Under the pieces are notes generated by a model. The model was not told the DNA's origin. It searched no databases and saw only the letters and a program-made list of their open reading frames with translations. This document shows positions 1 through 2,000 of a stretch of 33,256 nt of DNA, piece by piece (the first letter of the stretch is position 1; every line of letters starts with the position of its first letter). Source of the DNA: Pseudoselenomonas ruminantium. GTDB lineage: Bacteria > Bacillota > Negativicutes > Selenomonadales > Selenomonadaceae. The translations under genes and the position numbers were made by a program. The stretch covers positions 1 through 33,256 of the forward strand of contig NZ_FRBC01000029.1 of assembly GCF_900142515.1 (NCBI RefSeq). The letters are read 5' to 3'.

Positions 1-234
1 TAGCATCTGGTCATTCTTTTTCTTCAGGTCGTCCTCCTTCCTCTGAACGGCCTTACGCTCAGAGTCTGCTCCAAAGGCGAGATGGGCATTCTGTAGGAAC
101 TCCTGCTTCCATTTTCTGACCATGTTTGGATTCAGGCCGTTTTCAGAGCAGATTACATTGAATTCCTTGTCACCTTGAAGAATCGACAGGACGATCTTGG
201 TCTTGAATTCAGCAGTGTACTTTTTTCTTGGCAT
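1..234 (-). CDS. IS3-type transposase OrfA, N-terminal part (cut by window edge)
   Basis: The first 78 codons of a small basic protein are visible; the rest lies beyond position 1. The protein opens MPRKKYTAEFK and continues into a helix-turn-helix with the pattern I-x-x-S-E-N-G-L-N-P-N-M-V-R-K-W-K, typical of the HTH_Tnp_1 domain of IS3-family OrfA. A charged, coiled-coil-like stretch rich in Lys, Glu and Asp follows. In this family OrfA binds the IS ends and is joined to the OrfB integrase by a -1 frameshift. The ATG at 234 is preceded by a GGAGG ribosome binding site about 8 bases upstream. OrfB would lie outside the window, so it is not possible to say whether the element is intact. Confidence 0.8.
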   Translation of the reverse strand, partial: MPRKKYTAEFKTKIVLSILQGDKEFNVICSENGLNPNMVRKWKQEFLQNAHLAFGADSERKAVQRKEDDLKKKNDQML

Positions 235-321
235 GATGGCAACCTCCAATTTTCGTTACCTATACTATATCATGCACTCTTAAAATTTTCAGTACTGGTC
301 TGAATTCATGGGCCCATTATA
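1..321 (-). mobile_element. Right-hand end of an IS3-family insertion sequence (partial)
   Basis: The transposase reads away from about 320 toward position 1, so this is the upstream end of an IS. An IS3-like terminus starting with TG could begin at the TGGGCCCATG read on the minus strand around 310-319, next to an ATGGGCCCAT palindrome. The other end and any target-site duplication are outside the window, so the boundary is a guess. Confidence 0.4.
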
Positions 322-454: not shown

Positions 455-1381
455 TTACCAGTTATTATTCACAAATTCCACTGCATCGTTCTGTGTCAAA
501 GAATACCTCTTTATCAGTTGCTGAACAGCTACATCCTTATCAAGATTAAGGTCTCTCACCGTAGCTATAACATTCTGCATTCCTTCCTGCGCAGCTTCAG
601 CACGTCCTTCAGCATGACCTTCAGCGCGGCCTTCAGCGCGACCTTCTGCGCGACCTTCTGCCAATCCTTCTTTACGACCTTCCTTACGTCCTTCTTCGCG
701 GCCTTCTTCCAGTCCTATATTACGCATTTCGCGCATTTTCATCTCGTAAGTCATATAGCTCCTCCTCTCCCGTTCGATAGTCTTTACGTCCTTTATTTCC
801 TGATCTAACTCCTGGACGAATTCATCATTGCTGATTATCCCATCCACATAGTCCAAGAAAGCTTTGACGTCCGGAGTAACATCGTCCATATCCCCCTTAG
901 TGCTCAGGAACACTTTTGTGGAACCATCCGGCATCAGGATATCTTTATCCTCAGTGCAGTAGTTACGGAACGTATAGATATGCCTATGCTCGTCCAAAAT
1001 CGCAAAGGGGCAGATGAATATAATGTAGGTGTCATTCAACTCATCATATTCAGCTCCGGTTGCCAACAGATCTACATCTATCATCGATTGGTAATAACGA
1101 GGACGTTTGAACAATGCAGCATCCGTCAGCTTACGCACCTGCATCTCCACATTATAGACTGTGTGCTTTTCATCTTCCACATATACGTCCAGACGGACAC
1201 CCTTACTCTGGTAAGTAGCCGTTATTGTCTTTTCTTCCTCCAGATATTTTATATCGTGAATTTTGATTTTGAGAATCTTCTCCAGCATCTTCTTGCAGAT
1301 GCGCTTACGGCTCATGACCAGCTTGAACATGTAATCGTCCTGTATGGTCAGTTCTTCCCATGGTTTGATTTTATACGCCAT
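455..1381 (-). CDS. Rpn family recombination-promoting nuclease / putative transposase (PF12784-like)
   Basis: This 308-residue protein has the organisation of Rpn-family PD-(D/E)XK nucleases. The N-terminus has the usual W-E-E-L-T-I-Q-D-D-Y-M-F-K-L-V block. The catalytic core is visible as R-L-D-V-Y-V followed by Y-N-V-E-M-Q (about residues 63-83). A degenerate repeat of Glu-Gly-Arg units (about 224-267) and a 41-residue C-terminal module ending in NNNW follow. Rpn proteins were first described as RecA-independent recombination-promoting nucleases and later implicated in phage defence; which applies here is unknown. The ATG at 1381 is preceded by an AAAGGG ribosome binding site. The gene has its own promoter and terminator and diverges from the HTH gene at 1530. 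A strong internal ribosome binding site at 761-766 could produce a separate 99-residue C-terminal protein. Confidence 0.85.
   Translation of the reverse strand: MAYKIKPWEELTIQDDYMFKLVMSRKRICKKMLEKILKIKIHDIKYLEEEKTITATYQSKGVRLDVYVEDEKHTVYNVEMQVRKLTDAALFKRPRYYQSMIDVDLLATGAEYDELNDTYIIFICPFAILDEHRHIYTFRNYCTEDKDILMPDGSTKVFLSTKGDMDDVTPDVKAFLDYVDGIISNDEFVQELDQEIKDVKTIERERRSYMTYEMKMREMRNIGLEEGREEGRKEGRKEGLAEGRAEGRAEGRAEGHAEGRAEAAQEGMQNVIATVRDLNLDKDVAVQQLIKRYSLTQNDAVEFVNNNW
595..714 (-). repeat. Ten tandem 12-bp units inside the Rpn gene
   Basis: Ten consecutive 12-base units, each starting CTTC on the plus strand (such as CTTCAGCGCGAC and CTTCTGCGCGAC), run without interruption. Read in frame on the minus strand they give four-residue units of the type E-G-R-A/K. 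Units 3-5 are nearly identical, so copy number probably changes by slippage in whole 12-base steps that keep the reading frame. Confidence 0.9.
752..766 (-). promoter_or_regulatory. Strong internal ribosome binding site and ATG within the Rpn gene
   Basis: On the minus strand AGGAGG (766-761) lies six bases before an in-frame ATG (754-752). This is a better start signal than that of the full-length gene. Initiation here would give a 99-residue protein ending at 455 that contains only the Glu-Gly repeat and the C-terminal module. Rpn genes of E. coli are reported to encode such an intragenic small form (RpnS) that inhibits the nuclease. That it is used here is an inference. Confidence 0.5.
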
Positions 1382-1814: not shown

Positions 1815-2000
1815 GTGGAAAACACCAGCGAATCCCTAGTAACCGTAGAAGAGCTCTGCGAGGAGCTGATGATAGGTCGTAATGCTGCATACAGCTTGCT
1901 AGCCACAAATAAGATAAAAGGCTTTCGCATCGGCAGGATTTGGAAAATCCCCAAAGAAAGCGTAAAGCAGTATATCAAGGAACAAAGCTACATTAATTAA
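1815..2000 (+). CDS. Excisionase-like helix-turn-helix DNA-binding protein (61 aa)
   Basis: A second small HTH_17-type protein. It has the V-T-V-E-E-L-C-E-E-L helix, a recognition helix around G-R-N-A-A-Y-S-L-L, an F-R-I-G-R-I-W-K-I-P wing and a closing K-E-S-V-K-Q-Y-I helix, which is the classic excisionase-family signature. The start is a GTG at 1815, with AGGAGG nine bases upstream. Its resemblance to the product at 1530 is limited to the shared fold, so the two are an old paralogous pair or independent arrivals rather than a recent duplication. Both sit between two Rpn genes in what looks like an accessory patch. No target or partner can be named. Confidence 0.8.
   Translation: MENTSESLVTVEELCEELMIGRNAAYSLLATNKIKGFRIGRIWKIPKESVKQYIKEQSYIN

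Follow-up and report, generated by a model that had tools for sequence, protein, structure and literature searches.

Results

The window, a stretch of 33,256 bases in a 3.1-Mb draft genome, carries on its minus strand an rpn gene at 455–1381 (start ATG at 1381, stop codon at 457–455), the full-length, RpnL-like form of which is a PD-(D/E)XK nuclease of the TIGR01784/PF12784 kind with 308 residues. That the gene is an Rpn, as stated earlier in a sequence-only reading of the same DNA, is borne out by the family models: the 308-residue protein scores 122.7 bits against TIGR01784 (cut-off 52.1) and 51.5 bits against PF12784 (cut-off 27.4), over the cut-off in both cases. Asp65 (1187–1189) and the triplet Glu79-Met80-Gln81 (1139–1147) make up a putative D...E-x-Q nuclease site; D65, E79 and Q81 are invariant in 8/8 aligned proteins and again in 44/44 of a larger alignment, leaving the PD-(D/E)XK-type residues intact, and by analogy with PD-(D/E)XK enzymes their role is putatively catalytic. 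An AlphaFold2 model of the full protein has a mean pLDDT of 89.4 and places a long helix at residues 203 to 277. Over the first 235 codons, 65 synonymous changes separate the gene from its close orthologue L004 and 57 from L005, against 4 and 3 amino-acid changes, respectively; this imbalance shows that purifying selection acts on the nuclease, which has not decayed. Matches of the full-protein model to EcoT38I, EndoMS and Cap4 in a fold search were weak (E 0.01 or worse), and neither this model nor that of the 99-residue part described below gave a match at E 0.001 or better; a sequence search for a solved relative of the protein returned a single irrelevant match (E 0.44), and a PADLOC search at E 0.1 left the gene unmatched. 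Further rpn pieces occur in the same genome at C24:338-595 (L054, with two stops inside) and C32:62495-62752 (L001/L055, an 86-codon frame), and the gene in the window may be the sole intact rpn of its kind in its own genome.

Inside this gene, the minus strand reads ...GGGAGAGGAGGAGCTATATGACT..., in which AGGAGG (766–761) is followed by a six-base spacer (760–755) and by an ATG (754–752) in frame with the 308-residue protein, just as the sequence-only reading had described. AGGAGG, which its sequence and the conservation of codon -4 mark as an internal Shine-Dalgarno (SD) element, makes up codons -4 and -3 of the internal start, and the ATG, recognized by the conservation of its column, is residue 210 of the full protein. 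The predicted small product (455–754, minus strand) is RpnS-like and has 99 residues: 13 that begin the long helix, ten four-residue Gly-x-x-Glu repeats in that helix (596–715; the first repeat at residue 14), and a C-terminal module of 46 residues (458–595). This product, in which the sequence-only reading had placed the Glu-Gly repeat and the C-terminal module, has the RpnS layout. The number of repeats varies between orthologues: in L004 and L005, both 98% identical over the aligned stretch, the product would have 79 and 111 residues, through fewer and more repeats, respectively. Among 129 close homologues, the repeat motif was found in 90 genes, and in 87 of these it begins at product residue 13, 14, 17 or 18. 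The AlphaFold model of the 99-residue part predicts helices at 3–68, 73–84 and 88–98, with block pLDDT of 95–96 in the last 40 residues. Structure searches with it (Foldseek and VIA-align) gave no significant match and listed no chain of Escherichia coli RpnAS (VIA-align Z 5.5 or less). In sequence, RpnAS resembles the C-terminal modules of some homologues (128 modules compared, best E 8.7e-6) and is absent from the best 30 matches of the window's own module. Matches of the repeat part to Pfam Yae1_N and NCBIfam FliH lay below the cut-offs and were judged to be low-complexity.

Pairing with a generic anti-SD is far stronger at the internal start of the window gene than at its full-length start (-12.0 versus -4.7 kcal/mol); the host 16S 3′ end was not found in the draft genome with two exact patterns, and the pairing energies use the generic sequence. 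The earlier statement that the internal signal is the better one thus holds for this gene but not as a rule of the family, where it is the stronger in 55 of 123 genes (the full-length start being taken as the best-scoring candidate, a choice that favors it) and on average is no stronger (-9.47 internal versus -9.66 full-length). As a bare pattern, the site at 754 is modest and only mildly unusual: AGGAGGN6ATG has three matches in the window versus 0.46 expected, with 3 of 100 shuffles reaching three, and AGGAGGN5-8ATG has 366 matches genome-wide versus 79 for a reversed control. It is because of conservation, not pattern rarity, that the case for a start at 754 is strong. A promoter consensus scan gave no promoter-like site close upstream of 754; the only such site inside the gene on its strand lies at 1275–1246. 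The scan's total of four finds is below the shuffle mean of 6.0, and a consensus scan of this kind has low power to decide.

Homologues came from four sources: 100 genomes including that of the window, 40 of which had a match, in some merely a fragment or tail; a scan of genome contigs, from which 80 loci were used of at least 395 confirmed; viral contigs (8 loci); and 199 genomes of the phylum, 46 of them with a TIGR01784 match at E 1e-10, which yielded at least 30 loci. Frames shorter than 230 codons, frames with ambiguous residues and identical tails were left out. The 154 proteins aligned comprise 129 close homologues of the window's kind (from Selenomonas, Veillonella, Lachnospiraceae and others), 3 intermediate and 22 distant ones. 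Because some genomes enter via two collections, 75 representatives under 80% identity were used as a second set; a first set had 65 of 70 genes aligned (five rows dropped), with 39 representatives.

An ATG occupies the internal-start column in 121 of the 129 close homologues and the next codon in 6 more (127 in total), and the start is lost only in two homologues from viral contigs, L200 and L201; the start codon is thus tracked, the next codon being ATG in six of the eight genes in which the column is not. Codon -4 encodes Arg in 105/129 genes, by AGG in 103 and by AGA and CGG in one each, and Lys in 14, by AAG in 12; codon -3 encodes Val in 56/129, by GTG in 55. Background use in these genes is 14.5% of Arg codons for AGG and 28.6% of Val codons for GTG. 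Among the 75 representatives, 57 of the 58 with Arg at -4 encode it by AGG, whereas all six Arg codons appear in five other Arg-rich columns (42 to 75 Arg apiece). When columns were ranked by synonymous constraint, -4 and -3 were the first two of 272 testable columns in the first set (65 genes) and the first two of 268 in its 39 representatives; in third place comes a column of mostly Ser, encoded by AGC, whose rank may be due to the split of Ser codons into two separate blocks. Among 18 Clostridia loci, where AGG makes up 25% of Arg codons, 14 have AGG at -4; among 7 Veillonella loci, 5 have AGG there and 2 have AAG. The sequence-only reading had asked whether AGGAGG and ATG are conserved beyond what codon use requires. 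The start, AGG at -4 and GTG at -3 are indeed locked, but AGGAGG stands in the window's register in only 3/129 genes (the window gene and its two closest orthologues) and anywhere in -20 to -4 in 11/129, so the hexamer itself was rejected as the conserved element and AGG is what is kept. AGG or GAGG is found at about the SD place in 124/129 genes, the commonest form being AGGGTG (43/129); AGGGTGA occurs in 32/129, and by sequence logic its GGTGA can also pair with an extended anti-SD.

The mean SD pairing of 121 genes was -9.34 kcal/mol versus -4.52 for a synonymous-shuffle null (z -21), beyond all of 300 shuffle means (lowest -5.16), and in 70 representatives it was -9.44 versus -4.60 (z -16.5). 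Control internal Met codons showed no effect (-2.26 versus -2.32, n = 626; -2.45 versus -2.37, n = 372). Gene by gene the effect is moderate, with 69% of genes within the best 10% and 49% within the best 5% of their own synonymous null, because the residues themselves favor purines; the case is a statistical one. In 91% of the 70 representatives, mRNA structure around the start is lower than in upstream stretches of the same gene. When three close orthologues are compared, the start falls inside the longest stretch free of nucleotide differences (27 codons, 83 nt; permutation P 0.0014). Codon use and chance were rejected as explanations by the synonymous-constraint, pairing and shuffle tests, and judged from these alignments the ATG at 754 is very probably a real, selected translation start.

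Two other Rpn kinds carry internal starts at places of their own. None of the 22 distant proteins has Met at the window's column (L063 has Val there, as GTG). A different in-frame ATG, located in the second half and pairing at -9 or better, is present in 20 of the 22, where 40 synonymous shuffles gave 7.05 (max 12). Such strong second-half ATG codons occur in 47/75 representatives of the window's kind (10.8 shuffled, max 18), in 11/22 genes of the PF04754 kind when ATG only is counted (4.7, max 9), and in 9/60 non-rpn long frames of the same loci, some of which may not be genes (6.5, max 11). PF04754 is named for YhgA, which we take to be RpnA; the window gene belongs instead to PF12784/TIGR01784. 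At the corresponding place, 22 relatives of the PF04754 kind (three short frames dropped) have ATG in 13, GTG in 8 and CTT in 1; Val at this internal start is GTG in 8/8, where GTG makes up 36% of Val codons, and GGAGAGGAG precedes the start in 12/22. Rpn genes of this kind (the window's neighbor, L053, L204 and others) thus resemble the window gene in having an internal SD and ATG or GTG before a C-terminal module, but have another nuclease domain and another start context (GEERID-V/M-CKA versus ERxxYMT). The Rpn kinds differ in sequence around the site and have SD, spacing and start codon in common, and recurrence of an internal start in differing protein contexts accords with the start itself being the element retained. 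In distant TIGR01784 loci among L085–L109, a strong in-frame SD-ATG precedes the window's column by about 15–30 residues; in L089, for instance, it stands before MAGEILEKLSQDEKAR. Comparison of the sequences suggests that the internal start has shifted between Rpn lineages.

The neighboring rpn, of the PF04754 (YhgA-like) kind, is decayed. Its open part spans 2124–2777 on the minus strand, and up to 2906 it has, by comparison with its intact relative L053, two stop codons and 28 residues missing in the nuclease part. It keeps its internal SD, GGAGAGGAG (2355–2363), its GTG start at 2345 and its 73-codon module intact, with a predicted C-terminal product of 73 residues (2124–2345), and the remnant is possibly an orphan antitoxin, possibly decay in progress. 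Two small helix-turn-helix (HTH_17) genes of opposite orientation (1530–1730 and 1815–2000, plus strand) lie between this remnant and the intact rpn, and a frame at 1–249 (minus strand), cut by the contig end and adjoining the rpn genes, resembles by eye the start of a transposase OrfA.

The two rpn genes of the window share their C-terminal module (69% identical in protein, 108/150 bases). With module sharing defined as tails (the last 45 residues) of at least 60% identity, 24 pairs, which include near-duplicates and represent about four module types, link the window's kind with the PF04754 kind, and 2 further pairs link the window's kind with the intermediate one. L012 holds adjacent rpn genes of different kinds (frames 426–1290 and 1473–2376) with tails 98% identical in protein and 169/190 in DNA, which look as if copied from one rpn to the other. 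In L059, a PF04754-type rpn is followed, directly after its stop, by a stand-alone 74-codon frame of the same module type (about 1416–1640). The short gap before this frame shows no obvious SD, and the frame is perhaps translationally coupled. Within the window's kind, no clear module exchange was found (module 60% or more, core under 55%), two rows involving the tail-truncated L075.

Discussion

Translation from 754 is very likely because the start is conserved at the nucleotide level, and we consider it probable that the window gene is an Rpn L/S toxin-antitoxin unit, from internal start to antitoxin action. Ribosomes starting at 1381 would make the 308-residue PD-(D/E)XK nuclease, and those starting at 754, guided by AGGAGG, would make its 99-residue C-terminal part. 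Through the long helix that carries its repeats, the small protein would then associate with the counterpart helix in the full-length form and keep the nuclease inactive, which is how RpnS acts in E. coli, and the number of repeats would set which long and short forms fit one another. The antitoxin function is taken over by analogy from E. coli RpnS, and we likewise infer that the 99-residue protein would be produced, would bind and inhibit, and might have a role against phages.

The systems that serve as models are described in the preprint text of Zhong et al. 2023 (PMC10327210). E. coli has Rpn L/S systems RpnA-E and RpnP2, in which repeats begin 8–20 residues after the internal Met of RpnS and vary in number between strains; RpnAS is folded as three helices, the first one long, and blocks RpnAL cleavage in vitro; RpnAS and RpnBS lower SOS induction by their own long forms; removal of the internal start harms growth; and RpnC blocks only with matching repeat numbers. 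The same text describes internal transcription starts in E. coli rpn, rpnS present also as separate genes, and an RpnS from a Clostridium difficile rpn that was seen in E. coli and lost upon mutation of its ribosome-binding site and start (PMC10327210). Like E. coli Rpn, the window gene encodes a PD-(D/E)XK nuclease whose helical C-terminal part is preceded by an internal SD and start in the same frame, and it agrees with rpnA even in codon register (AAGGAG, six bases and ATGACT in rpnA, KESLMT; AGGAGG, six bases and ATGACT in the window, RRSYMT). Its repeats, too, begin 8–20 residues after the internal Met and vary in number between close orthologues, and the stand-alone frame in L059 recalls the separate rpnS genes. 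For its small product the model predicts a long helix and two short ones, which may correspond to the three helices of RpnAS. In contrast to E. coli Rpn, its C-terminal module differs from that of RpnAS, and no internal promoter was seen near 754.

The sequence-only reading had held that this arrangement would extend the toxin/internal-antitoxin design. A selected start does occur in this lineage, but the extension is less new than was claimed because the C. difficile rpn, likewise with an internal RpnS start outside E. coli, already appears in the original paper (PMC10327210); its likeness to the window gene is by description, not by sequence. No publication dealing with internal starts in the rpn genes of Selenomonas or of Negativicutes came up in our literature search, and the preprint text of PMC10327210 does not mention Selenomonas, Veillonella or Negativicutes; prior mention is possible, for example in its journal version or supplement. 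The L/S design is thus known, and what is new is this lineage, the evidence from locked codons and the sharing of modules between kinds.

Alternatively, one could envision the 99-residue protein as made, but as a partner or scaffold of the nuclease and not as its inhibitor, in the manner of Cas11d for Cas10d; we regard this, the main alternative, as unlikely. Internal starts with such complementary roles exist (PMC10327210), and the modelled long C-terminal helix would suit assembly in either role, but E. coli RpnAS and RpnBS curb their own long forms, loss of the start harms growth (PMC10327210), and RpnAS-like modules occur in the window gene's own family. It is considerably less probable that AGG-GTG acts as a translational pause that lets the nuclease domain fold before the helix, with no new start. 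The motif does stand at the start of the modelled long helix (from residue 203), after the nuclease domain, yet it holds its distance to the ATG, including by the next codon in six of the eight genes without ATG at the column; the Val of the PF04754-kind start is invariably GTG (8/8); and control Met codons in the same genes lack the signal. Rather more improbable still is the idea that something else holds the nucleotides, such as a recombination site for exchange of C-terminal modules. Modules are common to different nuclease kinds, and recent exchange could likewise yield the 83-nt invariant run, but the Rpn kinds differ around the site and still share SD, spacing and start codon, and among the tails listed what is shared is confined to the repeats and the part that follows them. 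Chance resemblance of a purine-rich Arg-Arg stretch to an SD can practically be dismissed: the 366 genomic matches to AGGAGGN5-8ATG (reversed control, 79) show how readily the pattern arises, but the observed mean pairing lies beyond all 300 synonymous shuffle means, and no excess appears among the 60 non-rpn frames from these loci (9 versus 6.5, max 11).

Returning to the toxin-antitoxin reading, we raise tentatively, as a possibility that we do not at present favor, that start and module form a self-contained antitoxin cassette that has moved among nuclease kinds unrelated to one another (PF12784-type, canonical TIGR01784-type and PF04754-type), with decayed rpn genes such as that at 2124–2777 perhaps being kept as orphan antitoxins whose product would still bind and tune the intact neighbor.

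A single suggestive site has become evidence, at the level of nucleotides, for selection on internal starts in several Rpn lineages, including those of rumen and gut Negativicutes and Clostridia. This suggests that gene-within-gene antitoxins are perhaps common in the widespread Rpn nuclease family, and the codon signature offers a simple means to find such internal starts. If modules and start are exchanged as cassettes, rpn islands would offer a setting in which to follow toxins exchanging one antitoxin for another.
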